From Loxodes magnus (lineage: Eukaryota; Ciliophora; Karyorelictea; Loxodida; Loxodidae): DNA of 64,000 nucleotides. This document shows, one piece after another, positions 1 through 40,249 of the stretch (its first letter is position 1; each line of letters starts with the position of its first letter). The notes beneath the pieces were generated by a model. It was not told where the DNA came from. It made no database searches and was given only the letters and a program-made list of their open reading frames with translations. The stretch is from assembly GCA_946699065.1 (NCBI GenBank), contig CAMPDV010001043.1, forward strand, positions 87,012 through 151,011, written 5' to 3'. A program made the position numbers and the translations under genes.

Positions 1-330
1 ATTATTTTACGCTTTATTTTTGCTTTTAATAATTTTATCTATTTAGGTTTTAATATTATCTATACTTGTTTGGTAGTATTTACATTTGAATATGTGTTAG
101 AATGTCTCTTTTTCTTGACATAAGCATTAATCATATTCTTAAGGAATATGTCTTTCTTGAAGATCACTTCTAAAAAAAAGTAGTTAGGTTCTCAGTCTGA
201 ATATTAATTTTGATGGTTGTATTTTCTCTTTGTTCAATAAAAAGTAGGTTATAATTGGGAATTTTTCTACATTTTTGAATTACTTTGTTATAATTTTTGC
301 TGTGATCATTTCTTTTTTTCTTTTTTTTGT
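1..330 (-). other. Coding-like stretch, unidentified, cut by the window edge
   Basis: Read on the minus strand with TAA/TAG as Gln, this stretch gives varied, polar protein text (for example KNYNKVIQKCRKIPNYN and KKDIFLKNMINAYVKKK) in two frames that change over at about position 170. That suits either the end of a host gene with an intron or frameshift, or a decayed gene. I recognise no family. Since the organism has no ordinary stop codons, openness alone proves nothing; the call rests on composition only. Confidence 0.2.
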
Positions 331-1540
331 TGTTTTTGTTATTCTCTAAATTGTTTAATTAAAAAATTGTTCTTTAATTTTTACATCAATTTTTTTATCG
401 AATTACATCATATTTAGATTTTATAAAGCTTTTAAATCTATTTTAAATTTCTTTTACATTTTTTTAATTTATTTCTGTTATTAAGTCTTATTTTTTTAAC
501 TTATTTAGAATAATTGGATAAACTTTTCATCTTTATTCTTAGATTATTACTATTGATTATATAAGTCATTTAGTTTTCTATAAAATTTAAAATATCTTTT
601 TGCAGTTATTTATTCAAATCCAAGTCAGTTAAAATCTATGTGTTGTAACTCATTTCAGGATGCTTATGGCATTTTCATATATTATCTTATAATTTATCGT
701 TAACTTACATGTATTTAATTTTTCACCTTTGTTATTCCAGTTTGTATACTATATGGAATTATTTCAGTACCATATTCTAATTTAGGTAGAATAAATAATC
801 TGAATAAATTTTTGAAATTAATTGGGATCGTCTTATTAAATCTGCTGTAAAATTTCTATTAAAATAAGTACAAATTAAGCTCGTTAATTGCATATTATTC
901 ACTTAAATCCACAACAAAATCAGCATTCTATCTGTAAATATTTAGTATAATAAATGTAGATATAATAATTTAATTATTGATATAAAATGAGAATATACCC
1001 TCATATATTAATAATAATAGCTATTAAGCATCATAATTTTACTGAGCTATAAATATGAAGATAATTATCCTAGTTCTATTTATTTTCTTTTAACTTTTTA
1101 GCTACTATTTATTAGTCTCTCTAATTTTATACTTTTTATGTAAAAAATTAGTTTAAGGTGCCTAATCATTCTTTCTAAATATAACTTTTTAAAAAGAGAT
1201 TCTATTTTACTACTATATAGTTGCTTATTTGCTATATATCATATAATAATTGCATTTATATAATTTAAAATTATAAGAATTAAAGAATCAAAAAGAATAA
1301 TTTATATATATCTGATTTATAAACCTTTTTAAAAACACTAAACTAGAATTAGATAGGTAAAATATATTTGCTAGTAATTAAATTTTACATACTCAACAAA
1401 AACGTTACTTATAAATAAATAAAATAAATGCTAAATTTATTAAAATATTTAAAGAATTTTACAATATGAACTTCATTAATTAGAGAAAAATTGAATTATT
1501 AATAAACTAGTAATTATCTATAAGAAACTATAATCAGACT
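331..1540. other. AT-rich stretch, nothing recognised
   Basis: Very AT-rich sequence with poly-T and poly-A runs. I see no protein motif, RNA motif or repeat shared with the rest of the window. Confidence 0.5.
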
Positions 1541-5108: not shown

Positions 5109-6051
5109 TACATCCAAATAATAGTTCACTTTTAGGACCTAATAGTATCCTTGCATATACGTCTTCTAAATATTTCGTGTTTCAAGGTTTTTTGAACAGC
5201 TCAAAATTTCTTAACTTATTCTTATTAGTTTTGCCATTCAATGATGGACAAATGGAAGTTATCTCCTTTCAGATATTGTCTTTTAAATTATTCTCATTCT
5301 ATATCTCTTCTAACATTTTTCCAAATAGTTTCCAGTCTTTTTACGAATCCTACGTTTCTTAGTCTTTTTTGGTATTTAGATAATTTAAATCTATATTATT
5401 ATATATTCTATTTCCATTTATTTGACATCACTTAATGTTACCTAGCTCTATATGTTTTTCTATTAGATTTATTATATTTATTACATTTTTTATTCTAATT
5501 TTTATAAGAAAATTACTTGATTTTATATTTAGCAAATTTCTTAGAGTGTTGTTCTTCAAGTATCATTAAATCTGCAGAAAATTTATTTAGTTATAAAAGT
5601 AGTCATTTTTTTGCTTATCTGTTCATCATATTTACTTCATCTACATCCTTATGCTTTATGAAGTCCTGTCTTATTGCATTTATTTTTACATGATCTTGAG
5701 CAAAATCATCGATTTATTTTTCCAATTTTAAATCTTGTTGATAAGGGCTAATTTCTCCTAAGTTTTTTCTTCCTAAGTTATTCCAAGGATATGACCCTTG
5801 TTTAAGTCTCCAAGATCATTGCAGAGACTAAATATCAAGTCTTGAATTTTATAATTTTACTACTTTGGTAATTCCTCAGTTGAGATTGTCACATGATGTT
5901 TTATAGATTTATTCGTATGAGTCATTAATGTTAAATTCTAAATGTTTTAAGAAGAATATTATGTTAATGAAGAAGACTTATGCTAAAGAATCAAAGCTTC
6001 TGGTTTTCTCCTCTGTTATTAAACCTTTTTCGAAGGCGTTTTTTATAATTA
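5109..6051 (-). CDS. Uncharacterised protein, C-terminal part, cut off by the inverted repeat
   Basis: The minus strand keeps one frame of about 310 codons with convincing protein composition. Examples are KTRSFDSLAQVFFINIIFF, QGSYPWNNLGRKNLGEISPY, DDFAQDHVKINAIRQDFIKH and GFVKRLETIWKNVRRDIE. Trp is written both TGG and TGA, and TAA/TAG are frequent as Gln. The coding text begins exactly where the left arm of the large inverted repeat begins (6052) and no start codon is visible there, so the N-terminal part has probably been lost or displaced by that element. The end is uncertain; composition fades after about 5110. I do not recognise the family; basic, Lys/Gln-rich helices could fit a transposon protein or a host nucleic-acid-binding protein. 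Confidence 0.5.
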
Positions 6052-7733
6052 TAAGCAAATAATATTAATAACATTAATAAAATATAACATATATTTTTAT
6101 TATCATACTTTATTTCTATTTTTGATACTAACTGTCATAAACAGATAATTACAACTGTTTTTAACTAAATTATAATAAAAATGTAAGTGCTACCAAAATG
6201 CTTAATCTGCTTGGAAGATTACAACTTAACTAACGCCCTTCTAACTGTCTTACCTTGCTTGCATATTTACTGTGGTGTATGTTTGAATACTTAGTACTGA
6301 TTATAAGGATTAATGTCATGCCCTATTTGCTAGAAGGTATATCATTTTAAGTTTGAAGATTTACCTAAAGATACAGATATAATAATAAAGATATAAGAGG
6401 AAGAATAATAAATCTAAAAAGGTTAGAATACTAAATAGAAGTTAAAAGATATATAGAGGTAAATAATAGAAAAAGCTTTTACTATTACAAAGAAATAATA
6501 AAATATTAGTAAGTTACTTATTAACTTAATAGTATAAAGTAATCTTAGGAATAAAGAAATATAATCTTAAAGTGTTTTTTATTTAGATTAGAAAATAAAT
6601 ATCTTATAGAATTGAATAAGAGATAGAAATATAATTTCTAAATTAAATTTAAAAAGTATTTTTGAAATATAAAATTTAGACTAAAAATAAATGATATAAA
6701 AGTAATAAAATTAAAACATTAAAATCTTATAAACTTAAAAATAAAATTTTATACTTTTACTTAGAAATTTAATGAATAAAATATAAAACCTAAATAAAAA
6801 TTACATCTCACTAATAAGGTAGAAACTATAAGAAAATATAAATTTAGAAGAATAAAAAATGGTTTAGATAAATATAAACTAAATGAAATAAACATAATTA
6901 AAGTTAAAAGATTCTATGTATATTCATCTTTTTTAGGATAAAACTTAAAATTTATGATTATTTAATATCGAAAAAGAATAGTTACAGCAAGTAAAAACTT
7001 AAAGTATAATTCCCTCAGGAAGTAATAGTATAGAATATTAAAATAAGTTATATTTAATTGGAGGAAAATCTTAAAAATAGGATCAAGGAATAATAGAAGC
7101 TTGATAAATTGATTATGAAGGTAATAGTAAAAGACTTAGTAATCTAAATGAAGGAAGATGTGCGTTTGGAATAGCAGCAGCTTAAAAACACATTTATGTA
7201 GTTGGAGGTGGTATTAGAAAGAGACAGATATTATAATCAGTAGAAAAGTTAAAAATAGGAAATGAAAACAAATGATAGAACTGTTCTTAATTTCCTTTTT
7301 AAATATCTGGTTAAAATTTAGTAGTAAATAAAGATGAATAAAGCATTTATTCTTTTGGACGATTTAATTAGAAAGGAGAAACTTTAAAAGATGTATGAAA
7401 TTATAGGATATAAAATGATAGATGGAGTAAGTGTGATTTGAATCTCCCTGAAGCTGTTTCTTATCCTATAGTGTGCTTAGATCCTTTAGTTATAATTGGA
7501 GGTCTGAAAAATTTTTACACGGCAGAATTTTCAAGAAGAATATATAGAAGAAATAAAGAATAATGAGAATAAAGATAAATTTTTAAAGATGTTATTGGTT
7601 TAACAGAGATGAAAGTAAAAGATAAGTTTGGATATGTTTTTGTTTATGAAAAAGGAAGATATTCAATATTGAAGATAGATTTAGTAAATTTGAGCTATAT
7701 AGCATTAAAAAAAATTGGTTGATTAACATAATT
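6052..7733 (+). repeat. Left arm of a long inverted repeat
   Basis: About 1.68 kb that recurs, nearly identical and reverse-complemented, at 11452-13133. Matching begins at taagcaaat near 6052 and ends just after the TGA of the RING-kelch reading frame. Arms this similar imply a recent inverted duplication or gene conversion between them. One 4-base difference (near 6365) and a few substitutions are visible. Confidence 0.9.
6181..7722 (+). CDS. RING-finger/coiled-coil/kelch-repeat protein, copy 1 (intact frame)
   Basis: A likely E3 ubiquitin ligase: the RING finger would recruit the E2 enzyme and the kelch blades would bind the substrate. The frame runs 513 codons from ATG to TGA without a shift. 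Residues 6-50 form a RING of C3HC4 type (CLICLEDY, then LPCLHIYCGVCLN and SCPICQK). Residues about 60-260 are a Gln/Lys-rich coiled coil. From about residue 270 come kelch motifs (KLYLIGGK, NLNEGRCAFGIAAA, HIYVVGGG, DVWNYRIQNDRWSKCDLNLP, LVIIGGL). In-frame TGA stands at the kelch Trp positions (EAW, NKW, DVW), while TGG is used in DRW, so TGA is read as Trp. Hence the final TGA is only the likeliest end; TAA follows at 7729. It lies inside the inverted-repeat arm, head-to-head with copy 2. Confidence 0.85.
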
Positions 7734-8655
7734 TTAATATTTAAAAATATGATTATTATAATAATTATTATTAATATGATTATTATTATTAATATTATAA
7801 ATGATTAAAATTTTATATTATATTATCTTATTAATTAATATAAATGATTATAATAATATAATAATATAATAAGATAGAATATAAACAAGTAATATAAAAT
7901 ATTATAAATGCTAATGTATAAATATGAGTCTCAATGAAATATTAATTATTAGGAGATATTAAATAGGTTAAATGATAAAGGAGAAGAATGATGATGAATT
8001 AGGAATAATAAGGAACTAAATATAAAATTAAAATATAGTTAATGATATGATGAAGGTTAAGTAAAATAGGATTTATTTAGGTCTGATTATAGATTAAAGT
8101 AATTATTGATATGTTTTATGTAAATAAATGGTTGGTTATTTGTGGTTTAATTAGTTAATTAATTTTTAAATAATAGTATATATTTTTGCCATAATTTTAA
8201 AATAAGTTATTATCATTATAAAAAAAATGCTTAATATGAATATGATTTAAACTACAGTTTTTACTTTAATTTTCTATATTTAAATTTGGAAAAATATCTA
8301 AATTCACTCTTATAAACATGAAAATTACATTATTTTAAAATAAATTTAAAACCATTTTACATAAATGTATTAAACATAGACTAAAAGCTAATTACTCTAT
8401 ATTATTATAACATACAACAGCTAATTCAGACAAAACTATCTATTATTAATAAATCTACATCATATACACTATATTCTACTTCTACCAATTTGCTATCTTT
8501 TTTGGTAATATCATTAGCATCTATTTATTTAATATCACTAACTTTCTATTTTATAACTAGAAAGTTATTTATTTTAATATAATGATAAGAAATCTTTAAT
8601 ATTAGCATATGATTAGATTAATCTCTTGAAAGAGGCTATAGATAAGTTTATTATA
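7734..8655. repeat. Middle of the RING-kelch module, left part
   Basis: AT-rich non-coding sequence with (TAA)/(TAT) runs at 7740-7870. Pieces recur elsewhere: about 7890-7975 matches 38385-38470, and about 8400-8650 matches 32740-32900 and 21250-21340. The last match continues across the point where SINE S1 is inserted here, making 21325-21340 an empty site. No gene seen. Confidence 0.55.
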
Positions 8656-9030
8656 AATTTAAATAGGGTGGAAAACCCTTTCCTTCTGATGCTGCTTGGA
8701 GGCCCAGCAAGACAACTAAAAAATGATCGCGGACGGAGGATAAATCGGAGGAAGAGAAATAGATAACAAGAGAAGGATGATACGACAAGCTGGATTACTC
8801 TGAATGACAGGAGGAAACTTTCTTCATCATAGGTCGAGGAAATGTACCCATAATCGCATATTACATCCCATGCTTTGGAAGAAAAATTACATGGATGTAC
8901 TGCAGGAAGAGAAAACAAGGATAGAGAGACTCTTAAAAAAAAATTTCGACATTAAATAAAATTAATTTAAAGAGCTGCGCACCAACGAGAGTGCTACGCA
9001 CTCTATAATCAAATTTATTTATTTATTTAT
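8656..9030 (+). mobile_element. SINE-like element S1
   Basis: A 375-base non-coding element, GC-richer than its flanks. It starts TTTAAATAGGGTGGAAAACCC (a small hairpin) and ends with the tail AAAGAGCTGCGCACC...TAATCAAATTTATTTATTTATTT. S2 at 14702 is about 90% identical along the whole length. The tail is shared with LINE B (38469-39895) and with S3-S7, so LINE B probably mobilises it. An inner 60-base module (TTCATCATAGGT to CATGCTTTGG) is shared with S3/S4. The open frame on its minus strand has no meaning. Confidence 0.8.
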
Positions 9031-10440: not shown

Positions 10441-11451
10441 ATGAAGAGGTGAAAATATTTAATATTTGCTAAACTTAATTTATCTTGATAACGATATTTT
10501 AATACCTATCTATATTTAAAGATGTTTAGTATTTAGCTCATTTATCTAATTTTTTTAATTATAAAAGGCAACATTATTATCTAAATATCAAAGCTTGTAT
10601 TGAATTATCACTTAATCTACTTTATTCAAAAATAATTGATTATAAAGAATTTTAGATAAACAAAATTATTTATTTACATTTGCTGTAAAACTAGAGCCTA
10701 TTATTTTATTTTTACTTTTTCTTAGTAGATATCTTAATTTTTAGCTATTCTTTATCCTAAAGTTATAAATTATGTATAATAATTTTATTGAAATGTAAGT
10801 AATTATATAATAATAGATTTTTCCATGAGAATCATAAAAATAAAATTAAAGTTCTTTAACTTCTAAATATCTTTTAGCCATTAAAAGAAATAATAATAAA
10901 AAATATAATTTTATCAAAATTATATTAAAAGATAGATAATAAATAAAATAACTGACTTTTATTTGATAAATAATTAAATATTTTTACTAGTAGTTCTTTA
11001 AATTTTATTAAGTTAGCATTATTAAAAGCTTTATACAAATAATTTTCTTTATTAGACAGTATTTCAGAAGTAAATATTTTGATATTTTCATAAAATTTAA
11101 CATAATTTGATAGAACTGATTATTTATTTCATTAAAGTAATTTTTTCATTATTTTAGATAAACTGTACTTTAAAAAGGATAATAGTTTAAATATTTTAAT
11201 TCATAATTTTTTTATTTAAATATTATAAAAATATTAGTTTAAATCATATTTTAAAGTTCTTCTTTTTCTATTTAGATATTTATTAAAAGAAAAATTTATT
11301 TAAATAAGTAGATAAAAAAAATATATTATATATAATTTAATGAAAATTATTTTAATTATCATAATTTTAAGTACGAATCAAAAATAAAATAATAAGATAG
11401 AATATATAATTTTAATATTTAATACTTAAATTCCAAATAATATTATAATTG
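10441..11451. repeat. Middle of the RING-kelch module, right part
   Basis: AT-rich sequence. The part 10490-10830 is clearly matched by 33150-33450, with shared phrases such as acatttgctgtaaaactagagcc and ttccatgagaatc. No coding text is seen. Confidence 0.55.
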
Positions 11452-13133
11452 TTAAAATTATGTTAATCAACCAATTTTTTTTAATGCTATATAGCTCAAA
11501 TTTACTAAATCTATCTTCAATATTGAATATCTTCCTTTTTCATAAACAAAAACATATCCAAACTTATCTTTTACTTTCATCTCTGTTAAACCAATAACAT
11601 CTTTAAAAATTTATCTTTATTCTCATTATTCTTTATTTCTTCTATATATTCTTCTTGAAAATTCTGCCGTGTAAAAATTTTTCAGACCTCCAATTATAAC
11701 TAAAGGATCTAAGCACACTATAGGATAAGAAACAGCTTCAGGGAGATTCAAATCACACTTACTCCATCTATCATTTTATATCCTATAATTTCATACATCT
11801 TTTAAAGTTTCTCCTTTCTAATTAAATCGTCCAAAAGAATAAATGCTTTATTCATCTTTATTTACTACTAAATTTTAACCAGATATTTAAAAAGGAAATT
11901 AAGAACAGTTCTATCATTTGTTTTCATTTCCTATTTTTAACTTTTCTACTGATTATAATATCTGTCTCTTTCTAATACCACCTCCAACTACATAAATGTG
12001 TTTTTAAGCTGCTGCTATTCCAAACGCACATCTTCCTTCATTTAGATTACTAAGTCTTTTACTATTACCTTCATAATCAATTTATCAAGCTTCTATTATT
12101 CCTTGATCCTATTTTTAAGATTTTCCTCCAATTAAATATAACTTATTTTAATATTCTATACTATTACTTCCTGAGGGAATTATACTTTAAGTTTTTACTT
12201 GCTGTAACTATTCTTTTTCGATATTAAATAATCATAAATTTTAAGTTTTATCCTAAAAAAGATGAATATACATAGAATCTTTTAACTTTAATTATGTTTA
12301 TTTCATTTAGTTTATATTTATCTAAACCATTTTTTATTCTTCTAAATTTATATTTTCTTATAGTTTCTACCTTATTAGTGAGATGTAATTTTTATTTAGG
12401 TTTTATATTTTATTCATTAAATTTCTAAGTAAAAGTATAAAATTTTATTTTTAAGTTTATAAGATTTTAATGTTTTAATTTTATTACTTTTATATCATTT
12501 ATTTTTAGTCTAAATTTTATATTTCAAAAATACTTTTTAAATTTAATTTAGAAATTATATTTCTATCTCTTATTCAATTCTATAAGATATTTATTTTCTA
12601 ATCTAAATAAAAAACACTTTAAGATTATATTTCTTTATTCCTAAGATTACTTTATACTATTAAGTTAATAAGTAACTTACTAATATTTTATTATTTCTTA
12701 ATAATAGTAAAAGCTTTTTCTATTATTTACCTCTATATATCTTTTAACTTCTATTTAGTATTCTAACCTTTTTAGATTTATTATTCTTTCTCTTATATCT
12801 TTATTATTATATCTGTATAGGTAAATCTTCAAACTTAAAATGATATGTTTTCTAGCAAATAGGGCATGACATTAATCCTTATAATCAGTACTGAGTATTC
12901 AAACATACACCACAGTAAATATGCAAGCAAGGTAAGACAGTTAGAAGGGCGTTAGTTAAGTTGTAATCTTCCAAGCAGATTAAGCATTTTGGTAGCACTT
13001 ACATTTTTATTATAATTTAGTTAAAAACAGTTGTAATTATCTGTTTATGACAGTTAGTATCAAAAATAGAAATAAAGTATGATAATAAAAATATATGTTA
13101 TATTTTATTTATTTTATTAATATTATTTGCTTA
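11452..13133 (-). repeat. Right arm of the long inverted repeat
   Basis: Reverse complement of 6052-7733. Together the arms and their 3.7 kb spacer span 7.1 kb and could fold into a giant hairpin. Outside the right arm the sequence continues into dispersed repeat X. Confidence 0.9.
11467..13004 (-). pseudogene. RING-finger/kelch protein, copy 2 (frame disrupted)
   Basis: Nearly identical to copy 1, with the RING motifs (CLICLEDY, CPICQK) and the kelch motifs all present. ATG at 13004, TGA at 11467. Just after the RING it is 4 bases shorter than copy 1 (near 12822), a difference shared with the copy at 33751-35270. This shifts the coiled-coil region into another frame, and I found no compensating change nearby. 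Either these copies are broken or copy 1 gained 4 bases; copy 1 is the one with a continuous sensible frame. Confidence 0.75.
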
Positions 13134-14640
13134 AAACAAATAGTCGTATATAAGAGTCTAAAACTATAATTAAAGGAGATAGCAATAATATATAGAATAT
13201 ATAAATATAATTGAAGATTAAATGTATTTAAAATAAATGTTGTTATTTTTAATCTTAAAAGTAATCTAAGTGTATATTAATTTAGCTATATTTGTTTAAT
13301 ACATTTTTATTAATTTAAATAATAATAAGGATAATTTTATTTTAATTACATTAAAGGATTTTAATATTATAGCTTATTTTTGCACTAAGAAATAAAAAAT
13401 AGATTAATATTAAGAGAAAGTAATTGATATCTCTTAGTATATGATTTAAATATCATAGTTTTAAATATTAAAATAATAATAAAGGTATATGTTATAAGGG
13501 AAATTGATAGTAAATAATAAAAATAGATTAATTTCTGCTTAATAGCAAGTAATTTTATTTTAGTAAAATATAAATATTTAATAGTAGTATACAACTTTTT
13601 AAAAATAGCAATTATGAAAAAGATAAACTTAATAGGTCTTCTAAGTGGATTAATTATAATAAATTTAACTATATAGTTTTAATTTAGTATTATTAATTTT
13701 TGAATAAAATAAATATAAACAATTATTATTTGTATAAGTGTAGCTTTTGAAAGTAATTTACACAATAAATTAATTAAAAAGCTAAATTAATTTAAATTTT
13801 AAGCAACAAAATAAAAATGAAATTAAAAATCTGTATAATATAAAGGATATTATAATAAAATGTTTTATAGTAAGTATTTTACATCCATAAAGAACAACAA
13901 ACATATAAACCTAATAAAAATTATAAATTAAGCTAGTTCTAATCAATTAGATAATCAATAAAATTTAATTTAGTTAAATGAGATAAAGTATATCTAATAA
14001 AGTGTTCTAATTAAAATAATTAGTTTATTAATATAATTAGAAACTCTTTTATACGAGTATTAAAATTAAAAATATATATCTTAAATTTAGATACTATTTA
14101 AATTATTATAATTAAATACAACTCTTTTTATGTAAGATACTAGAGATTAAATTAAAAATATGAATACAATTAATTTAACTTATGATATTATTTTAAGAAC
14201 AGAATAAACTATATTTTATTTCTAAATTATATATATATCTAATTAATTTACATATTATTATTTTTAATTATATACATTACTTTAACTAATAACTAAAAAA
14301 GATTATATTCAATTTTATTTAAAAACAATTAATATTTTATAATTCAAATATAAAATATACTCTAAAATTAATAAATTACATACATTTATTTTAAACCAAA
14401 TAATACTATAAATTCAGTAAAATGCAATTCAAATATTTTTTATTTCAATTATGTAAAATTATATAGAAACCAATTTCAAGCATCAGCCTATCAAATAAAC
14501 TTTATATAAGCATTAAGATAAATACTATTAAATGCTAACCTAATCTAAGATAAAAATTAGTAGTAAGAAAAATATAATATTTAAATCTTAATATTAATTT
14601 CATTTATTTTATATATTATTTTATTTAATCTCTTCTTTAT
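13134..14640. repeat. Dispersed AT-rich repeat X, copy 1
   Basis: AT-rich DNA whose first 500 bases are related to 27690-27940, 36290-36480 and 37420-37640 (shared phrases: aatagattaatattaa, tatttaatagtag, gaaattga). The later part resembles 28070-28330 and 37780-37980. I see no protein domain. It lies immediately outside the RING-kelch arm here and near the RING-kelch copy at 33751-35270, so it may belong to the same larger unit. Confidence 0.45.
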
Positions 14641-14701: not shown

Positions 14702-15072
14702 AATTTAAATAGGGTGGAAAACCCTTTCCTTCGGACGCTGCTTAGAAGTCCAAGTAAGGCAACTAAAAAATGAGCCAGGACGGAGGATAAATCGGAGGAA
14801 GAGAAATAAATAACAAGAGAAGGATGATATGTCAAGCTGGATTACTTTGAATGACAGGAGGAAACTTTCTTCATCATAGGTCGAGGAAATATACCCATAA
14901 TCACATATTGCATCCTATGCTTTGGAAAAAAAATTACAGGGATGTACTGCAGGAAGAGAAAACAAGGATAGAGAGACTCATAATTTTTTTTCGACATTAA
15001 TTAAGATTGATTTAAAGAGCTACACACCAACGAGAGTGCTACGTACTCTATAATCAAATTTATTTATTTATC
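14702..15072 (+). mobile_element. SINE-like element S2
   Basis: Full-length match to S1, with the same AAATAGGGTGGAAAACCC start, the same inner 60-base module, TTTCGACATTAA before the tail, and the tail AAAGAGCTACACACC...TTTATTTATTTAT. It differs from S1 by scattered substitutions, so the insertions are not recent duplicates of each other. Confidence 0.8.
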
Positions 15073-15224
15073 TATTATTATTTGCTTTTTAAAATATTTT
15101 TTGATATGGTCGATCTGAATAAAAATTTTTGATTGAATCCTTGCAATTAAAAAAAACTCAAGAGAATATATTATTCATTCAATTTTTCATATTAATATAT
15201 ATTAATAAAATGGCACCTAAGAAA

Positions 15225-15965: not shown

Positions 15966-16086
15966 ATTTATTTGACAGTTAAAAATATTTTTGTAGATCC
16001 GACATTTTTTTAATTATTAATTTAATGTAATAATAATAGTTCAAAATTAAATAATATATAAGTTTTTAATTTTTAAATCAAACTTT

Positions 16087-17596
16087 TTATTAAGAGTTTA
16101 TTTTTTAATCATCTATATATTTTCCGTTTAGAAATTTTCCTTATAAAATCTCTCCATTTATTTTTTTATAAATTCCAGTTCCATATTTTTTTTCATCTTT
16201 CCATTCCCCTTCGTACATATCACCATTTGCATAATAGTAAATTCCCTTTCCATGTTTCTTATCATTTAAATAGTCTCCTACATATTTATCTCCTTTGCAT
16301 TCTCCATGCTATCAAATAAAAGTTCCCTTTCCTTGTCTCTATCCGTTCATATATTACCCCTCATATCTATCTCCATTGTTTCATGTAAAGATTCCATATC
16401 CACTTTTTTAATCTTTTATCCAATCACCTTCATATTTATTTCTATTATAAAATTTCATTGTTCCGTAACCATCACGTTTTCCCTATCTTCAATCACCTTC
16501 ATAAATGCTTCCTTCATTAAAATAATGAATTCCTTTACCGTGTCGCTTGTCTTCATAAAAATTTCCGACATATTCATCACCTTCGTTTGGCTTTCCAAAA
16601 GTCTAGGTTCCATGTCCTTGTTTTGTATCGTTTACAAAATATCCCTTATATATGCCTCCACTTTTTCATGTTTAAACTCCATATCCATTTCTTTTTCCGT
16701 CTAATCATTCACCTTCATAGGTGCTTCCCTCTTTAGAATGAAATGTTCCTGTACCTTACATTTGCCCATTAAAAAATTCACCAACGTACTTATCTCTTTT
16801 CCAAGGATCTTATCCTCAAACAAAAACTCCTTTTCCTTATATTTCGTCATTTACAAATTATCCTTTGTATTTATCTCCATTCTATGATATAAGTATTCCG
16901 TTTCCTTAACTCTTTCCGTTTATTCAATCACCTTCATAAATTTATTAATTTCCATAAAATTGAACTCCGAAACCTTCTCTTTCTCCATTACGGAACTAAC
17001 CTATATAGGTTTAATCTTTTTGTTTTTTTTAATTTTTATATGTAAACACCTTATCCATCAATTTAGTTTAAATATCATTGTCCGTTATACTAATTGCCAG
17101 ATTTCCATATATAATGCCCATGTCCATGTCTATATAATTTTCCTTTTATGATAAATCCTGTATATAAATCTTTTTAATATCTTTTATTTTGTACATATTC
17201 AACTTCTTATTACTTATAGTAGTCATATAAATTATTTTCTTACTTGAAACTTTTTAAAGTTTCTTCAAGTTTTTCATTGAAATAGTCAATTTTTTTTTGA
17301 TTTTCTTCTTTTGGATCTACTTTATTTTATATCTCTTGAGCAAGTTTTTAATTTTATACTTACTATATGTTTTCATTTTATGTAAAAGTGATTTCTTCAT
17401 GAGAAAACATCGGAGGAGGTAAATAATAATCACTATCAATATCTTTTTAAATTTAATAAGTATTCTTTTAATACTCTTCTTCACTTTATATATTTTCGAA
17501 ATTTTGCTTTTTTGAGGACTGGCTAACAACTGTTTAAAATTATTCATCAACACTCTAATTTTAGTTTCTTTTTTTATTTGATTGACAACAACCCAT
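16087..17596 (-). CDS. MORN-repeat protein with MGCC lipid-anchor start
   Basis: MORN proteins act as scaffolds at membranes, cortex or cilia. The start ATG at 17596 gives MGCCQSNKKRN, a classic N-myristoylation plus palmitoylation signal, so the protein should sit on a membrane. Residues about 10-170 are an acidic, Gln-rich linker. At least eleven MORN units follow, e.g. YEGDWINGKSQGNGILI, YVGEFFNGQMQGTGTF, YEGEWKDEKKYGTGIY. The MORN Trp is TGA in some units (YEGDW-RQGKRDG, YEGEW-LDGKRNG) and TGG in others (YEGDW-IKDQKSG), direct evidence that TGA is Trp. The end is probably the tandem TAA TAA at 16087-16092. One apparent one-base frameshift lies in an A-run (about 17015-17040) between the second and third units; a homopolymer error or a real break are both possible. 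About 500 residues. Confidence 0.85.
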
Positions 17597-18555: not shown

Positions 18556-19470
18556 AAGTTCTTCTTTTAGAAATTATAAAAGAATACAAATTTAGAGGAA
18601 CAAAAAACCGTTTTGTTATAGAAAAATAAAGTTAAGGAAACATAATAAAGCATAATAGAATCAAAGTTTATTCATTTTTTTAGTGAGAAAGTTAATACTT
18701 ACTAATATTTAATATTGAAACAGAATAACTACGATAAGTTAAAACTTAAAAAATGATTCCTAAATTAAGTAAAAGTATAGAATACTAAAATTAATTATAT
18801 TTAGTTGGAGGATTTATCTAAGAATAAGGCATAAAAGAAGCTTGATAATTTGATTATGAAGGAAAATGTAAAAAGCTTGACAATCTGAATGAGGGAAGAC
18901 GCTTATAGGGAATAGCTGCAGCTAAAGAACATATTTTTGTAGTTGGAGGAGGTAATAGAAAACTTCAAACCTTATAATCAGTAGAAAATTAAAAATAGGT
19001 AATCAAAATAAATGATAGAATTGCTCTTAATTTCCTTTTAAAATATTTGCCTAAGCTTTATTAGTTGATAAAGGTGAATAAAATATTTATTCTTTTGGAG
19101 GAACAAATTCGAAAGTATAGAGTTTGAAAGATATATGATAGTATAATATATAAAATGATAAATGGAGTAAATAAGATTTGAATCTTCCTGTAGCTCTTGC
19201 TTGGCCTATAGTATCTTTAGAACCTTTTATCATAGTTGGAGGGAAGACAAATTTGTTAACGAACGAATTTTCAAAAAAAAAATTTAAAAGAAACAAAAAT
19301 TAGTGGCAATAAAACTAAATTTTTAAAGATGTGTTTCCTTTTACTTAGATAAAAACAAGAGATAAATTTGGATATATTTTTACTCTAGAATAGCATGATC
19401 TTATAGTTTTGAAGCTTCATATAGAAAACTTAAGTTGTGAAGTATTAAAAACAATATTTTAACTTAATTT
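18556..19470 (+). pseudogene. RING-finger/kelch protein, copy 3 (kelch part only, decayed)
   Basis: Diverged copy of the second half of the RING-kelch gene. Readable blades are QLYLVGGF, LNEGRRLQGIAAA, HIFVVGGG, DIWQYNIQNDKWSKQDLNLP and FIIVGGK. The RING and most of the coiled coil are absent, and the blades lie in more than one frame. TGA again stands for Trp in EAW and DIW, as in copy 1, though this copy is clearly older, so the TGA codons were there in the common ancestor. Confidence 0.75.
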
Positions 19471-20068
19471 TTAATATTTTTAATCTTGTGTAATAGCATA
19501 AAATAATAAAATGCTCAAAATTATATCTACTGAATCTCATTTCTTATTACTTTAGATTAACTGTTTAAAGATATTTATTAACTAATCCTTTTTTTATTAA
19601 AATTAGTTTATTTTATATCTACTTTCTCAAAATAAAATATTTGATTATTTATTCTCATTAAAAGGGAGATATTGAAGTTACTTATTTAAACTAAGGATTT
19701 TAATATTAACAAAAATATAAAAATTATAGCTTGACATTTAGAATTATAATGAAGTTACTAATATCATGTTAAGAAACTAATTATATATTTTTATCTTAAT
19801 TAATTAAACTTTTGTATAACTTAAAAAATATATCAATATCTTTTTACACCTAATTAATTTAATTATCGCAAAAAAAATAATTAGAAGAATGACTAGCTAT
19901 ATATACGCTTTCAATGGAAAAATCCTGATGTTACAAAAGTAAAAGATTATTTGATAAATAACATAAGAAGTTAAAATAAAAGCAAGTAGTGATTGAGTAA
20001 AATATTATAAAATAATTATTTAGATAAACCTAATATGTTATAGTTTAAGATTAGTTCTTAATAAAAAA
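19471..20068. other. AT-rich stretch, nothing recognised
   Basis: AT-rich sequence between kelch copy 3 and element Z3. No motif recognised. Confidence 0.35.
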
Positions 20069-21744: not shown

Positions 21745-22260
21745 AAAATGGATTAAAATAAGATATCATAAGTAGACCTTCAGATCAGCAAATATACTCA
21801 TTAATTCAGCAGACCGAATAAAGATTACAGAGAATAATTTTTGAAAAGAATTAGGAAATGTAAAATAAGATGAGTTATGATCCCATGGAAGTAGAGACAG
21901 AGAGAGAAATAAATTAAGCACTGTTTTATCATAAAGAAGAACAATAATAAGGTGCTGATACTGTAAGAACCAAGGTCATAAGGTAAGAAACTGTCGGAAA
22001 TTTAGGAAGAAAGAAAAAAAGAACGAAAGACATAAAATAAAATATTTAGAATATAATGCACAAAAGAAGCAAAATTATATAGAAGGAAAGAACAACTAAT
22101 CCTTTAAACAATATATCAAATACTAATGGAAGCAAGAGAATGAAAAAAAGACAATATGGATTTGATATAGAAAAGTTTATGAAGGTAAGTCTCAGCAGAT
22201 GTAAGAGAAAGAAAGAATTATTTAAAGTTTATTCCGAAGAAAATTATTATTGAGAATTAA
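21745..22260 (+). mobile_element. Zinc-knuckle ORF1-like element, copy Z4
   Basis: A shorter copy. The knuckle near 21952-22000 is a complete CCHC box, CWYCKNQGHKVRNC, with its first Trp written TGA; aromatic residues are usual at that position. A Lys/Gln-rich basic region follows. The element splits AT-rich module sequence that is continuous near 9595 and 33075 (aaccattttaagtaaaata), so it is an insertion with an identifiable empty site. No other ORF accompanies it. Confidence 0.65.
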
Positions 22261-24840: not shown

Positions 24841-26313
24841 ATGAGTAGCTTTACTCATTGTAAACTATGCTAAAATAAATATGACTCTTTAACTAAACTT
24901 CCTAAAGTTCTTAATTGTGGCCATACTCTTTGTATTAGTTGCTGTTAATGTCTATGCAATAACTCTTTTATCAAATGTCCCTTCGATAATTTCACGTAAT
25001 GTGATAGTTACTTAAAGCTAAGAACTAATCTACTTCTGCTAGATTATATAAAGTAAAGAAGTTAGTAAAACAAAGTAAATAGCATATTAAAGGACTAGAA
25101 GTAAAAGGTAGAATTTCTATCTAATTAGTTAGGATAGATAGTATAAGACTTGAAGTAGCAAAAGTTATAAACTATTTAAATTATAGAAGAGTAATAAAAA
25201 CTAATTTTATAGCAAATAGAAACTAACTAACTAAATATAAGACAAAAAATAACTTCACTATCTAAAGATTAGAAATAAAATATCAACTGAAATTAAATTA
25301 ACTAGAGCTCTTTATCAGAGTTAATAAATAAATTAAATGAACTAAAGCAAGAGAAATTAATAAATAAAATATATAAAAAGTAAAAAGTGAGAGCAGAAAT
25401 AAGAGATAATAAGTTATTAACTTTATTAAAAGAACAAATAATAGAAATAACAGATATAAGTAATTAAATAAAACAAATAAAGCATATGAACAAAGAATAG
25501 CAAGTAGAAATTAAGAGTTAATAAAGTATATATAATAAAAGTGAGAGTATTTATACATATGAAGATCATTTGAAATAGTTAGCTTAATTTGGAGATTACG
25601 AAGCGAATAGATAATTGGAAGTATATTAATCACTTATATAAAAATCTTAGATATAGGAAAATAATGCAGCACTGGAAGAACTAACTTTGATGTAACTTCT
25701 ATTTAGTAGTCCATATGGATCATAAGAGGCAGAAGGAAATTTAAAAAATTTATTAAATTATTTGAAATAGAATAATGAAAAATAAAAAAATTGCATAGTA
25801 ATGTAAAGATGCAGTAACTAAAGGGAAACCTCATGAAAACCTAATGATTAACCTAATATAATAACTTTTAAAACTAATAAAAAATGCCTTTTCTTTGGCT
25901 TTGAAATTTTCAAACCCTTTTCTATTGATTAATAATCAAGAATTACAATGCTAATGATTATTTAAGGTGATTAAGCGAAAAACAATGATTTATCTAATAT
26001 AAAATTTTTTACTAAAGATAACTTAGTTATATCTTATAATCCTTTAGATAAAATACATAGAATCTGAATTATGTAAGATATAGAAATTTAGCAAGAAACT
26101 CCATATACTCTTTCTATTGAGTTAAAGGGAGGTGAGCTATAACAAGCTAACTTGTAATCTTTCCGTTTTAGTATTGATAAAGAAGATTTCAATGTGTAAA
26201 TTTTGGAAACATAAAATGTTTGGGATAGGTAAGAACATAACTTATGGTACAAGCAAGGTCCTTTAGTAAATTTGCTGTTTAGAAATATCTAGCACTGATT
26301 TCATCCATAATAA
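24841..26313 (+). CDS. RING-finger/coiled-coil protein (intact, distinct from the RING-kelch family)
   Basis: Probable E3 ubiquitin ligase of TRIM-like layout. The frame is continuous for 485 codons from ATG to a TGA at 26296, then four more codons to a tandem TAA TAA at 26308-26313. Residues 7-55 form a RING (HCKLCQNKY, LNCGHTLCISCCQCLC, CPFDNF). Residues about 75-290 are a long Gln/Lys/Leu coiled coil. The C-terminal third is a beta-rich domain (FFGFEIFKPFSID, ISYNPLDKIHRIW, YTLSIELKGGE, VWDRQEHNLWY) resembling PHR- or SPRY-like substrate-binding folds in layout only. One internal TGA (26065-26067) must be Trp for the domain to be whole; the frame stays sensible after it. It shares no kelch blades with the genes at 6181 and 33751. 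Confidence 0.8.
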
Positions 26314-29255: not shown

Positions 29256-29329
29256 ATAAAAAGATAACTTTATTACTCTTCATATTGTATTTTATTTTTA
29301 TTTTCTTAGTTTTTATTTATAATTAATGA

Positions 29330-32300
29330 AATATGACAAAAATAAGATTTTACTCCTATACTAATAAAAGGATATAGGATATACTTTAGAAATGCTGGTA
29401 AAGGAGAAGATGTAAGCTTGATTATTAGAGATGAAATAAATAGTACTGAATCTAGAGTAAATATAGAAACCTAAAATCGATTTGTTTCAGTCAAAATGGA
29501 AAATATATTAATCACATCTTGCTATATGCTAGACAATAATAAAAGTAGTCTTATTAAAGATTAAACTTATTATTATATTAATACATATATTGGATAACTT
29601 CCAAATAATCCTCATATATTTATAGGAGACTTCAATGCTCTATTATAAAATTACGGAAATAATACTTAAACGATTATGATAACACATCTAGATTTTAATA
29701 ATTCTTGCAATAAACGATCTTTAAACAGTTAATAATACTATTAGTAATACATGCATACACAAAGAAACGGGAAAATAGTACTGTAATGACTATATTTTAA
29801 TTAGTAGTCATTTAAATAATAGTTAATTTGTAAATTTTTAGGTTCACAATGACTGCTTAAAAACTGATCACATTCCAATTATTGTTAACTTTTGTCTAAT
29901 ACAAAATATTATGATGATGATAAAATAATTTAGAGAAAATATAAAATTAATCGTTTGTAAGATCCAATTGATAGATAAAGATATTAGCAATCATTTATAC
30001 AAACTTGTAATGAATTCTTTCAAATAGATAGAAATTATTTAGAGGAATAGTACATGTACATTAGCAGAAAAATTCAAGAAAACGCAGACTCAATACTAGA
30101 ATCATTTATTCCTGATCCTAAATAAAACAAACTTCCTCAAAATCTTGCAAGAAAGTATATAGATGCGAAAAGAGCTAACTAAGAGTATAAAGAAACTCAA
30201 ATTTATTTTGGAAGAATTAATTAATAAATCCTTAATCTTTTGGGATCAGCTAATAAACTTTAAAATAAATACAAATATCATCTATAAAAATGGTTAAAAG
30301 ATAAAGCAAAGAAGAAATTTCTAAATCTTAATGAAGAACCAAAAATTATGTTTTCACAAGCGAAAAAGATACTTAACCCAAAAATGAGAGACCAACTGAA
30401 CTTTAATTAAGAGCTTAAAAGCCAATTCATTGATTCATGAGAGAACTTTGTTTTTAGAAGCATTAAAATCTTACTTAGTAAATACCTTCCTATTTACAAG
30501 AATTTCAACTCTTTATGATTTAAGAAATTTAAGAAATTATTCAATAAATCCCTAATGGAAAAATAGCTGGTCCAGATGGCATAAAGGAAGCATTATTAAA
30601 GTATGGAGGTTATTATCTTATTTTGATTCTCCATTCTTTCTTGAATAATATGCTGAGGTTAGGTAGAATACCTGAAGAACTTAATATGTCAATCATTATT
30701 CCTATATTTAAAAAAGGAAGCAAAGATGACTGGAAAAAGGGAGATCTTTTTCTTTGATGAACTCTAGCCTAAAAATGAATGATAAAGCTTTAACTAAAAG
30801 GTTATATGATTAAATATATAAAAGAAACTTAATTCATGAAAGCTAGATGGGATTCATGAAAAGGAAATAAACTGCTATTCAAATTTTGACAATATAGTAA
30901 ATAATAGAATCCTATCGCAAATAAGCAAAAGGGAAGACAAAACCTTGCCACACTAATAGATGTAGAGAAAATGTTTGATACTATAGAAAGAAGATTGCTT
31001 TTCGTTTAACTCAGGAGAGTCAAGCTACCTTTAGGACTTATAAATGCACTTGAATCTATCTATAAAAACATAAATTCCTCCTTTCTTATAGATGGAACTT
31101 TATCAAGAAAGATAAAATACAATAATGGAGTTATGTAAGGTAGCTCACATAGTTCAGTGCTTATTTTGCTGTACTATAATATTGTAATAAGATATTTAGA
31201 AAGTAAAAGTAACATAATAGGATTAAAATGTAATACTATTGGCAGAAGCTTCGCATGCAGAGGATGGACAGATGATTTAATTCTCCTATCAAAATCTGAA
31301 AAGTCCATGCAGATTTTAATAAATGAAACATAAAAAGTATTCGAATGAATTTAATTGAATATTAATACTTCAAAATGTGAAGTTATTTAATTCTTAAAAA
31401 AGAATCAAAAAGAAGTTAAGTTAAACTTAAAAATAAAAGGCAACCCAATTATTTAGAAGTAATAAGTAACATATTTAGAAGTAATTCTTCATCAAAAAAA
31501 GAACCTAATTAATCACTGCAAATCGGTTTTAATTAATTATCTGTCTGCTATGAAATGTGACTCCTTGACATTTTAAGACTTTGTGCCGAATGTTCGCACT
31601 CCCTAAAGCAGAATATGGAGGAGAATTAATACCTTGAGCAATCTAAAATGGAGTTACTGGCATAATAAATAAAATTGATAAAAATATGAGATTAATAGCA
31701 AGGAAAACCTTCTAAGCATCTGAAAACGCTTTTAATGAGCCCTGTAATATAGATTTTAACTGAATACCATTTAAACATATTAAGGCTTTGAGGTTTTTTA
31801 GATTTTTTTATAAAATGCAATAAGAAAGTATCAACCTTCCATAATCAAAGACTCTCTTTATGATAATTGATAGGAAGGATATTAATATAGAGACTAATTA
31901 ACAAGATTATCTGAATACTACAAAATTGACTTTAATAATTAGGAACATAATAGTAGCTTAACTACCTTTACGAAATATGTAAAGAACTAGATTCAACATA
32001 AATTCCATAAAGTAACTTAGTAAAGACTTAAATGTATGCCAACTGCAAAGATTTTTATAGAATAATTTTGTTACTAACGATAATTCCCAGAAATTACCTA
32101 TCTGAAACTAAATAAATAATATAGAAAAGAAATAATCAGCATATACAAACTCAGAACTTAAAGCTACAACTTTTGAAAGATCTTTAAGACAGACATCACC
32201 TTATCGAGAATCCTTATTGCATCTATGGAGAATTGGACAAGCTCCAACATATTATGGATTGCAATTGTTGCATAGATATAAGAGAATGGTTAATAACAAA

Positions 32301-32660
32301 GATTAAATAAGGCGATATAAGAAGATTAATAACTTATGATTGAAATTATATCAACTAATTCCCAAAAAACAAAATAGAATACACAGATTTACAAATAAAA
32401 ATCTTCCACAGGATGCTGGTCAAAGGAGATTGGAATTATTCGAAATGGAAAAAGAAGAATGATTGGAAAGTACTGAATCTAATGAAGAGGAAGTAAAAAA
32501 TCAAGAAAATAGTGAAGAGAACGAGGAAGAAAAGGAATAATAAGAAGAACTAAAAGAGTAAGTGGAAGAATAGAAAGAATAAATTGATAACTAAGATAAT
32601 CAAGCCTAAATATAAGATGAAGATGAAAGCGGGAGATGAAAAATCTATTAATAATTCTAA
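29330..32660 (+). mobile_element. Non-LTR retrotransposon, LINE A, 5-prime truncated and frameshifted
   Basis: ORF2 encodes endonuclease and reverse transcriptase for target-primed insertion. An APE-type endonuclease is at 29340-29700 (ILITSCYMLDNN, IFIGDFNALLQN), missing its first residues. Reverse transcriptase runs from about 30540 to 31500: NGKIAGPDGIKEALLKYGG, MGFMKRKQTAIQILT, IDVEKMFDTIERRLLF, NGVMQGSS, and GWTDDLILLS for the catalytic FADD box. A C-terminal Cys/His part is near 32215-32280 (HCIYGELDKLQHIMDCNCC). The protein ends in a Glu/Lys-rich tail. At least four frame changes break it. TGA stands for Trp at LIPW-AIQNG and FNW-IPFKH, as in the relative at 62950-64000. It lacks the LINE B tail. 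Confidence 0.85.
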
Positions 32661-32699: not shown

Positions 32700-33750
32700 A
32701 TGCAGCCAGATTATTTTAGTTTAAGTTAAAACATAGTACTACTAATTGTCTATATTTATAAGATAGCTAATTGAAACAAAAGTATCTGATTAGCAATAAA
32801 TCTACATGATATAGACTATACTCTATTTCTACCTATTTACTATCTATTTTCTGACTAACTATGTAATAGTAAAATGTATTGTAATATTTAGCATTATTGA
32901 AAAGCTTAATGTATAAAAATAGTAAATTTGAAAGAGTATAAATTTCCTATATGATGTATATTAAACTAAAATAAAATTTCTTATATAAATTATTTAATAA
33001 TATTTTATATATATTAATTATAAGTTGAAAATTCTAGCAAAAAAGGAAGCAAGCAAATATATCATGTAACCATTTTAAGTAAAATAATTGTTTAAATTAG
33101 TAATAAAGTTATTATAAATGAATATGTATTCAGATATTTTAATATATAATAGCTATTTTAATATCTATCTATATTTAAAGATGCTTAATATTTAGCTCTT
33201 TAATTCTAAAAGGTTAGTATTATTATATAAGCTTGTATGGAATTATCATTTTAATCTACTTAAATAATTAAATAATTTTAGATAAATAAAATTATTTATT
33301 TACATTTGCTATAAAATTAGAGCCTATTATTTTATTTTTACTAGTAGATATCTTCGTAGCTAGTTTTTACCCTAAAGTTATAAATTATGTATAATAATTT
33401 TATTGAGATATAAATGTTAATAAGAGATTTTTCCATGAGAATCTTAAAGATAAATTAAACTTAACTTCTAAATATAGCTATTAATAATAAGAATTCTAAT
33501 TTTATCAAATTATAAGACAGATAATAATTCAAATTATTTACTTAAATAGTTCAATATTTATAAAAATTATCAAGTAACCATAAATACATTTATACTATTT
33601 CACTACTAAATATCAACTAACTAGATCAAACTCTTCAAACATTACATATATATATTATACATTATTCATTTATTTAACTATTAATTAAATTTATTATTTT
33701 AATATTTAATACTTATATATAAATAATATTATAATTTTAAATTATATTAG
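32700..33750. repeat. Third RING-kelch module, middle sequence (uninterrupted)
   Basis: Matches 8400-8600, 9470-9720 and 10490-10840 of the first module in order, but without S1, R or Z2. It therefore shows the pre-insertion state. Shared phrases include aaataaatctacatgatatag, ccattttaagtaaaata and ttccatgagaatc. Confidence 0.6.
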
Positions 33751-35270
33751 TCAACCAATTCTTTTTAATGTTAAACAGCTCAAATTTACTAAGTCGATCT
33801 TTAATACTGAATCTCTATCTTATTCATAAGCAAAAACATATCCAAACTTCTCTCTTACTTTCATCTCTGTTAAAGCAGCAACATTTTTAAAAATTTATCT
33901 TTATTCTCATTATTCTTTGTTTCTTTTATATATTCTTATTGAATATTCTAATGTTTATAAATTTTTCATACCTCCAATTATAACTAAAGGTTCTAAGCAC
34001 ACTATTGGATTAATAACAGCTTCAGGAAGATTCAAATCACACTTACTCCATCCATCTTTCTATATATTATACTTTCATATGCCTTTCAAAGTTTATATTT
34101 TCTAATTTAATCCTCCAAAAGAATAAATATTTTATTCATCTTTATCTACTATTAATATTTAGTTAGCTATTTAAAAAGGAAATTAAGAACAGTTCTATCA
34201 TTTATTTTCATTTCCTATTTTTAACTTTTCTACTGATTATAATATCTGTCCCTTTCTAATACCACCTCCAACTATAAAAATGTGTTCTTAAGCTGATGCT
34301 ATTCCAGATCCAAATCTTCCTTCATTTAGATTACAAAGTATTTTACTATTACCTTCATAATCAAATTATCAAGTTTCTTTTATTCCTTAATCCTATTTTC
34401 AAGATGTTCCTCCAATTAAATATAACTTATTTTAATATGCTATACTATTAGCTGCTAAGGGAATTATATTTTAAATTTTTACTTGCTGTAGCTATTCTTT
34501 TTCAATATTAAATAATCATAAATTTTTAGAATCATCTAAAAAAAAGTGAATATGCATAGAATCTTTTAACTTTTATTATGTTTATTTTATTTTATTTATA
34601 TTTAACTAAACCATCTTTTATTCTTATAGATTTATATTTTCTTATAGTTTCTTTCTTATTAGTGAGATGTAATTTTAATTTATTAAATTTCTAAGTAAAA
34701 GTATAAAATTTTATTTTTAAGTTTATAAGATTTTAATGTTTTAATTTTATTACTTTTATATCATTTATTTTTAGTCTAAATTTTATATTTCAAAAATACT
34801 TTTTAAATTTAATTTAGAAATTATATTTCTATCTCTTATTCAATTCTATAAGATATTTATTTTCTAATCTAAATAAAAAACACTTTAAGATTATATTTCT
34901 TTATTCCTAAGATTACTTTATACTATTAAGTTAATAAGTAACTTACTAATATTTTATTATTTCTTAGTAATAGTAAAAGCTTTTTCTATTATTTACCTCT
35001 ATATATCTTTTAACTTCTATTTAGTATTCTAACCTTTTTAGATTTATTATTCTTTCTCTTATATCTTTATTATTATATCTGTATAGGTAAATCTTCAAAC
35101 TTAAAATGGTATACTTTCTAGCAAATAGGGCATGACATTAATCCTTATAATCAGTACTGAGTATTCAAACATAAACCACAGTAAATATGTCCACAAGGTA
35201 AAGCAGTTGGAAGAGCGTTAGTTAAGTTGTAATCTTCCAGACAGATTAAGCATTTTGGTAAGGCTTACAT
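33751..35270 (-). pseudogene. RING-finger/kelch protein, copy 4 (frame disrupted)
   Basis: About 93% similar to copies 1 and 2. ATG at 35270; the RING (CLICLEDY, then CGLCLN-like and CPICQK) and the kelch blades (GIWKYNIQKDGWSKCDLNLP, LVIIGGM) are present. The 4-base difference after the RING is the same as in copy 2, and overall the copy is 22 bases shorter than copy 1, so the frame is not kept. TGA again encodes Trp in GIW. Confidence 0.75.
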
Positions 35271-35340: not shown

Positions 35341-35820
35341 AAATAAATAAATAAATTTTATTATAGAGCGCGTAGCACTCTCATTGGTGCGCAGCTCTTT
35401 AAAAAATGCTTCATACTGACAAGAATGTTTGAAACTGATAAACCTTGTTCAATACTAGATAATTATTCAGTACTGATAAAAATGTTCAATACTGATATAA
35501 TTTCAGAATACTCGTAATCTTTAATACTTGCTGGAGGTCCAAGGACATGACAGGATTGTGTCTCATTGCATCACCAAAGCAGAGGACGATATGTGTCAAT
35601 TATGGGTACTTAAATTCCCCACCTCTGTTGAAGCTCGCAATATTATTTCTTTTTCGTTCCAGAATTAAAAATTATAATAAGTCAGTGCCAAAGGTCAAAC
35701 TAGCAGATGTCTTGAGGCCAAGCCAAAGCAGAGGAAGACATAAAGTCGATTATGGGTACTTAACTTCCCCAACCTCTGATGAAGATGACCTTGCTGCTCA
35801 CCTTCGAACAATGAGCAAAG
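35341..35820 (-). mobile_element. SINE-like element S3
   Basis: Minus-strand element of about 480 bases; S4 at 42020-42510 is its near-identical partner in the other orientation. Tail at 35341-35402 (AAAGAGCTGCGCACC, GAGTGCTACGCGCTC, then TTTATTTATTTATTT). Next to the tail is a short tandem array of about 25-base units (AGTACTGATAAAAATGTTCA-like, five imperfect copies at 35415-35515). The body holds two copies of a 60-base module that occurs once in S1/S2. The plus-strand frame across it is not a gene. Confidence 0.8.
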
Positions 35821-36657
35821 CAATTTAATAAAAATATATTATATTTTATTTATTATATGAATATAATTAGGTAGATCTAAATAAGAGTGTAAGAGTATAA
35901 TAGATATTTAGTAATAATATGATATAAATATATATTATTAAAGCTAATACTTATACCTTGTTCTTCAATTACTTGGTGAGTTTAATTAGAGGGTATTTTA
36001 GTTTAATTTAGAGTGAGTTTAAAAGGATCTTTGAATAATAATTTGGATTTGAAGTGGTTATAGGATATAAATAATAATTATAAATATAATTATGAAATCT
36101 ATTTTAAGGTTTCTTATTTTGTTAAGATAATCTAAATAATACTTTGATTAATGCTATATATTTTTATATATTTATGCTATTTTTATTAAAAGGCTTTGAA
36201 TAAGGATAAATTTGTTTTAATTATATTAAGTTATTTTAAAATCATTTTTAATTGTTTCTCGCTCCAAGAAAATAAAGAAAAATACATTAATATTATGGAC
36301 AAATAGTGAATCTCTCTTAATATATTTATTTAAATAACCCATTTTAAATATCAATTTGAAGAATTAAAATAAGGCTATGTAAGATTATTTTTAATATAAG
36401 GAATCAAAAATACTTTAATTTATTCACTAAGGGATTTTACTAAAGCACTAATATTTAATAGTAATATACTCCTACAAATTAAAACTATTAAAACTAAATA
36501 TATAATTTCACACCTTTTTAATTATTACTATATTAAAAGACTAAAAATCATTACAACATAGTTTACATTTAGTTTAATTAAGAGTAAAATTACAGTCTAA
36601 GTTAGTTATATCTAATAATTAAATATATAAAATATATTATTATAATTATCATTTATT
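35821..36657. repeat. Dispersed AT-rich repeat X, copy 3
   Basis: AT-rich; 36290-36640 is related to the other X copies. No gene seen. Confidence 0.35.
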
Positions 36658-36985
36658 TATTTTAAATAGTGGAGGAGCAAGGCTCCAACTAAGATTAACT
36701 TAAACTCAAGAACAATGAAAGTACTTAAGGAGTGACAAACTGGACAAGAATCTTGACAATAGCCAAGCAGGAAAGAGACATTGAGTAACGGCTGATGAAA
36801 GACGATTATATCTCTTGGGGCATGACTCCAAACATTCCGAAGTAAAATACAGAATTTCATAAGGAATGAAGCACTGGATTAAACTTCCAATAAGAGATTT
36901 TTATTTATTTTAAATAAAATTTTAAAGAACTACGTATTATCGAGAGTGTTATGAGCTCTAAAATTCAATTTATTTATAAATAATT
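36658..36985 (+). mobile_element. SINE-like element S6
   Basis: Starts TTTAAATAGTGGAGGAGCAAG, like the starts of S1, S2 and S7. It has a GC-richer body unlike theirs and ends with a worn form of the shared tail (AAAGAACTACGTATTATCGAG, then AATTTATTTATAAAT). About 330 bases. It carries no open frame with meaning. Confidence 0.65.
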
Positions 36986-37079
36986 ATCTCTTTAGTAATT
37001 TTTTTTAAAATATAATAACATACATATAAACTTAATAAATATACTTTTTAATTCATTAATTTCAACTAAAACAGTTTTT

Positions 37080-37332
37080 GGAAACTCCTTTAATTGCTCG
37101 ACGTTCTCTTTTTAAGGAATAACGGGGATTTCCTGTTGTGCTCCAGGTACAGCTTCTAGGGAGCTCCATCACTTTGAGCAGCCAGGTTTCAAGCCCCTAC
37201 TAAGAGCGGATAATCTCAAAGACAGTGTTCAGAAAATGACTCTGACCAGGGACTTTCTGAAAGGAAAGAAACTTGTTCCTAGCCATAAAACCAGAAAGTG
37301 TAGTAAAGGCCAATATCAGCTCCCACTATCTT
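37080..37332 (+). repeat. Dispersed repeat R, copy 2
   Basis: Reverse complement of 9090-9372 with scattered substitutions. Same GGTTTCAAGCCCC box on this strand. No LINE tail. Nothing suggests protein coding. Confidence 0.65.
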
Positions 37333-38460: not shown

Positions 38461-38468
38461 TTTGGAGA

Positions 38469-40240: not shown

Positions 40241-40249
40241 ATATATATA

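Follow-up and report, generated by a model that had tools for sequence, protein, structure and literature searches.

The 64,000-nt stretch of DNA analysed here (the window; 22.9% GC by base counts) raises the question of what TAA, TAG and TGA mean in its genes. Under table 4 the window holds only 14 frames of at least 100 aa, and coherent genes emerge when TAA and TAG are read as Gln and TGA as Trp. The original prediction had taken all three standard stop codons as sense, with exactly these meanings. TGA as Trp held up, as did TAA as Gln (in two of three families, MORN being slightly against); the residue assigned to TAG went further than the evidence does. That all three codons are sense and that TGA encodes Trp is well supported, and TAA as Gln is supported. 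The code itself is not new, as codes with all three codons in sense use are already known in a few protists.

Pfam matches were found to MORN (E 5.7e-55), Myb (1.8e-30), RVT_1 (2.1e-16) and PHR (3.5e-6), and to Exo_endo_phos_2 at an E of 2.4e-4, under its cut-off; a search of 10 further frames brought one family, PHR, over the cut-off. Two scans of viral contigs in the correct reading frame found no relatives. A first unsupervised gene model called long genes in wrong frames (for example 45975-48563) and was dropped. Its replacement took the MORN and membrane genes described below as seeds, so the resulting gene set is not independent of the code.

The case for TGA as Trp begins with the MORN-repeat gene, which had been placed, correctly, at 16087-17596.

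16081-17596, minus strand: MORN-repeat gene with the start MGCC and eight in-frame TGA codons in the repeat domain (from Pfam, PDB and re-translation)
16078-16080, minus strand: TGA in frame with the MORN gene, which it may terminate

Its units carry either TGA or TGG at the conserved Trp, as had been claimed: in the YEGDW, YEGEW and YNGQW motifs this position is TGA in four units and TGG in two. A second aromatic column (G.G...W) holds four more TGA codons and one TGG. Together the aromatic columns, Y.G.W and G.G...W, make up 32 of the repeat domain's 332 codons and take in every one of its eight TGA codons (hypergeometric P 3.1e-9); they were defined from the repeat pattern after the gene had been seen. 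The same columns contain three of the four TGG codons, with the fourth outside both, and one of 21 TAA/TAG codons. When TGA was re-translated as each of the 20 residues, Trp gave the top MORN Pfam score (180.4 bits), followed by Phe (174.9) and Tyr (164.5); the lead over Phe is just 5.5 bits. Masking TAA, TAG and TGA as X leaves a protein that still matches 26 distinct PDB sequences, the best being a MORN1 (E 1.8e-38). Read by eye, the top PDB alignment has, in its first stretch, Trp, Tyr and Tyr opposite the three TGAs covered there; in the fifth of five printed alignments, a looser fit to FAP266, TGAs face Trp twice and also Phe, Asp, Val and Thr. Near 17031-17056, within an A-run, the MORN gene has a +1 frame change that could be an indel, a short intron or an error; no clear short intron was visible there by eye.

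Three further loci bear on the meaning of TGA.

25300-26298, plus strand: PHR-domain gene; 25300 is where reading began, and the TGA at 26296 is the putative stop
44043-49728, minus strand: beta-helix/membrane gene stretch, 1895 codons in one frame, which may extend to the TGA at 43848
21953-21994, plus strand: CCHC zinc knuckle with TGA at the first aromatic position

Two in-frame TGA codons were counted in the PHR piece, and by Pfam score Trp was the best of 10 residues for them (28.1 bits; Tyr 24.6). Against PDB, the PHR region returned herpesvirus glycoprotein H chains alone (11 sequences, E 0.002-0.008), which we took as chance matches. The membrane gene, whose fold we presume to be a beta-helix, carries 18 TGA, 74 TAA and 33 TAG in its 1895 codons; the longest run in its frame is 241 codons for absence of TGA and 88 codons for absence of TAA and TAG. 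The predicted gene exists, and in-frame TGA is present at the three places named for it, GY-R, FD-P and C-(TAG)GSH; its length had been put at 1,840 codons, and the piece used here has 1895. No Pfam model covers this family, with Chlam_PMP as the only match, below threshold. The zinc knuckle had been misdescribed as having one Trp that is TGA in one copy and TGG in another. Among its three copies, that at 21953 (plus strand) reads C-TGA-YC in a canonical CCHC, that at 41640 (plus strand) reads CFCC and is also canonical, and that at 20613 (plus strand) reads CYYC, with Pro at the expected His. The TGA column is thus Phe or Tyr elsewhere, and the TGG codons of the copies at 41640 and 20613 lie in other columns.

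Repeated elements allow TGA to be compared between copies. LINE copies were picked from a six-frame self-comparison; its output consisted mostly of single repeats recurring in more than one frame, and it served no other purpose.

29328-32639, plus strand: LINE retroelement with Exo_endo_phos_2, RVT_1 and a C-terminal part, in three frames, a degenerate or interrupted copy
62700-63998, minus strand: second copy of the LINE C-terminal part
1-1053, minus strand: third copy of the LINE C-terminal part
11443-12300, minus strand: kelch copy A, with an identical inverted copy at 6889-7746 (plus strand) in the repeat arm 6371-7746
33600-34599, minus strand: kelch copy B
18600-19560, plus strand: kelch copy C; an A-run near 19000 shifts its frame by one base, which may be a sequencing error or decay

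In the three diverged LINE copies TGA is paired with TGA five times (three distinct columns), with Tyr and Phe twice each and with Ile once; these counts are not independent (Tyr, Phe and Ile represent one column each) and come from alignments of three of the six copy pairs. All three diverged kelch copies have TGA at three Trp-like positions, as predicted. This sharing is nonetheless weak evidence because synonymous changes are not in excess between copies A and B, as expected under little selection: 14 of 80 changed codons are synonymous in frame, versus 21 of 79 and 18 of 84 in the shifted frames. Between A and C the excess is modest (36 of 141, versus 21 of 147 and 27 of 149). In all four pieces compared, in-frame TGA is below the count of the most TGA-rich other frame, and TAA is about equal; raw codon counts prove nothing alone, since in-frame TGA and TAA are not consistently rarer or commoner than in other frames.

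The kelch gene lies in a perfect 1376-nt inverted repeat (6371-7746 / 11443-12818), which is extended by another 319 nt at 98% identity (6049-6367 / 12818-13136) and represents either a recent inverted duplication or an amplification or assembly chimera. Copies A and B are 99% alike in a flank (12408-12707 / 34674-34973) and 86-87% alike in the kelch part, a mosaic that perhaps reflects gene conversion.

The meaning of TAA is best followed in the Myb gene.

59440-59950, minus strand: R2R3 Myb gene piece; the invariant Gln of QCRERW is TAA

This TAA was found where it had been predicted, at the Gln of GK-Q-CRERW, and faces Q in the structures of c-Myb, v-Myb and B-Myb. The Myb domain is free of TGA, and its Trp codons are TGG. 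Scored with Myb PF00249, Gln was the best of five residues for TAA (Q 105.2 bits, L 102.0, H 101.8, E 101.6, K 99.9), and with RVT_1 it was the best of 10 (Q 60.7, K 57.5, E 57.1); in the QG motif of the RT (31127 on), too, the Gln is TAA. In MORN, His (183.8) and Glu (182.4) exceed Gln (180.4, the same as Met). Summed over MORN, RVT_1 and Myb, the scores for TAA are 346.3 bits for Gln and 341.1 each for Glu and His. Opposite TAA the LINE copies have Lys seven times, Gln five times and Glu three times among 36 other residues, which leans towards Gln because codons of the CAR type are far scarcer than those for Lys or Glu; transition bias is a caveat here. TAG is sense in frame, and its residue is a different matter. 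In MORN its scores as Gln and Glu are equal (180.4 bits; Arg 179.4), in Myb PF00249 Leu (106.5) exceeds Glu and Lys (both 105.3) and these exceed Gln (105.2), and the hydropathy of the residues around TAG does not separate Gln from Leu or others. As the residue of TAG, Gln is inseparable here from Glu, Leu, Lys and Arg.

TGA accounts for 29 of 2857 codons (1.02%), beside 16 TGG, 134 TAA, 52 TAG, 60 CAA and 6 CAG. These counts cover five pieces from four non-repeat genes (MORN in two pieces, membrane, MYB and PHR), with kelch and LINE left out; the UGA figure comes from a single window, and two thirds of it from the membrane gene. The ratio of TGA to TGG varies by gene, with one TGA to five TGG in MYB. 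The A-ending share is 0.64 for TGA/TGG and 0.72-0.91 in seven other A/G pairs. Were the codons not reassigned, 2.3% of codons would be Gln and 0.56% Trp. Swart et al. 2016 (PMC4967479) put UGA usage at 0.042% for Condylostoma magnum, 0.120% for Parduczia and 0.059% for Blepharisma. Set against these three figures, the use of UGA in the window looks unusual in its heaviness.

If TGA is sense, how do the genes end? We estimated the end of the coding signal without using TAA, TAG or TGA. Past this point the next in-frame TGA follows after 1 codon in LINE, 12 in PHR, 19 in kelch A, 18 in kelch B and 36 in the membrane gene; in MYB the TGA precedes the estimated end by 4 codons. The combined P for a TGA soon after the coding end is 0.017 for LINE, PHR, kelch A and membrane, four of seven entries chosen post hoc, with kelch B omitted as a paralogue, MORN because the estimate extended into an adjoining stretch that shares its frame, and MYB because its TGA precedes the estimate. 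GC drops after the codon relative to before it in six of six putative terminal TGAs, and no other TGA lies within 40 codons upstream of any of the six. In five genes (kelch B and MYB omitted here too) the last 20 codons contain 0 TGA in 100, and the preceding 100 codons also contain 0, with about one expected per 100. We weakly favour table 27, with UGA as sole stop, over the table 28 of Condylostoma.

From these observations we consider it very probable that the DNA is nuclear and comes from a protist, most likely a ciliate, with UGA as Trp and putatively also as stop, UAA as Gln and UAG most likely as Gln. A karyorelict-like ciliate would agree with the LINE elements, the 23% GC and the code, and we infer a lineage near the karyorelicts or Condylostoma as a plausible placement. 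A Condylostoma-type code, with all three codons both sense and stop, has the same sense meanings and would explain why TAA in kelch copy C takes the place of the putative stop TGA of A and B, and why a TAA TAA pair stands three codons ahead of the terminal TGA of MORN. However, copy C is the copy with the frame change, TAA and TAG together number 11 in the last 20 codons versus 10 in codons 21-40 of the same five genes (ends that assume TGA), and the Condylostoma figure of 0.042% UGA is far from the 1.02% found here; we regard this code as unlikely. Slightly easier to entertain, and still rather unlikely, is another residue for UAA and/or UAG, be it Glu (as in Blastocrithidia and peritrichs) or Leu for UAG (as in some phyllopharyngeans). 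TAG scores about as well as Glu, Leu, Lys or Arg as it does as Gln, and Glu outscores Gln for TAA in MORN; the summed TAA scores and the TAA codons at the Gln positions of Myb QCRERW and the RT QG motif argue in the opposite direction.

Two other explanations leave the sense meanings of UAR alone. If UAR were Gln and UGA only a stop, the TGAs would mark pseudogenes or germline debris. The kelch and LINE copies are indeed partly decayed, with frame changes and, from A to B, no synonymous excess, but decay would scatter TGA, whereas the MORN TGAs all sit at aromatic columns, and a single frame of 1895 codons bears 18 TGA with no frame break. We consider decay extremely improbable. A syndinean source such as Amoebophrya ex Karlodinium veneficum would share the sense meanings, with UGA as the inferred stop; there, however, 14 dynein heavy chain alignments show a strong preference for UGG over UGA (PMC6394959), whereas TGA outnumbers TGG here, which makes this source quite improbable. 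The Amoebophrya genome paper describes a contextual reading of all three codons (PMC12005148).

Among known codes, that of the karyorelicts (table 27; Loxodes, Parduczia) has UAA and UAG as Gln and UGA as Trp and only stop. The window differs in its UGA use (1.02% versus 0.12% in Parduczia), in its coding GC (23-31% by piece versus 33.5% in L. magnus, where introns are short, with a mode of 17 bp) and in showing no UAA depletion ahead of the putative stops. Single-cell work gives UGA as stop in all karyorelict species sampled and UAR as Gln, with UAA unclear in Kentrophoros (PMC6935857). For Condylostoma magnum, identical in sense meanings and different in that all three codons are also stops, UGA decoding as Trp has been shown by mass spectrometry and ribosome profiling (PMC4967479). 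Blastocrithidia also has all three codons as sense, with UGA as Trp at 0.72-0.85% of codons (PMC12153298), and differs in UAR as Glu, UAA as stop and a coding GC of 38.7-46.4%. The ciliate Plagiopyla has been listed beside Karyorelictea and Condylostoma among the lineages in which all three codons are reassigned (PMC11687900).

In the mechanism we propose, UGA would be the commoner Trp codon, with a balance of A to G close to that in other codon pairs of the genome, and would also end genes, being told from sense by its closeness to the mRNA 3' end, as in a table 27 type of code. The 3' UTR would be short and AU-rich. UAR would be read by tRNA-Gln with UUA and CUA anticodons, and UGA by a tRNA-Trp with either a UCA anticodon or a CCA anticodon and a modified stem. 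A UGA-decoding tRNA-Trp(CCA) with a 4-bp stem is reported in some trypanosomatids and ciliates (PMC13092985; PMC12153298). The window itself yielded no tRNA with ARAGORN and no Rfam family at gathering score.

More tentatively, the source may be a ciliate that relies on UGA as its sole terminator while also writing about two thirds of its Trp with it, close to what mutational balance would give. If so, UGA would be more heavily ambiguous here than any stop codon in the published cases compared, and with roughly one sense UGA in every hundred codons, nothing but closeness to the mRNA end could single out the real stop. In the published figures compared here, ciliates that use UGA as Trp use it rarely, which raises the question of whether such ambiguity is tolerable only at low frequency. 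A genome where UGA comes close to mutational balance, and whose retroelements follow the same code, would suit a study of how one codon is shared between eRF1 and tRNA-Trp, and of how nearness to the poly(A) tail decides the meaning of UGA. This heavy use of UGA is the part most worth following.

Other repeats lie between and beside these genes. Two inverted arms (35346-35811 / 42021-42505), 89-97% alike and containing 19-bp tandem repeats, enclose about 6.2 kb with zinc-knuckle frames and frames that look RT-like by eye. A DNA transposon at 35346-42505 was set aside, as one outer end matches other repeat ends (family D6), as the ends of inverted retroelements would. Short dispersed repeats at 8667-9030, 14713-15075 and 42407-42512 share their ends and appear coding-like to the gene model; they are perhaps SINEs or LINE ends.
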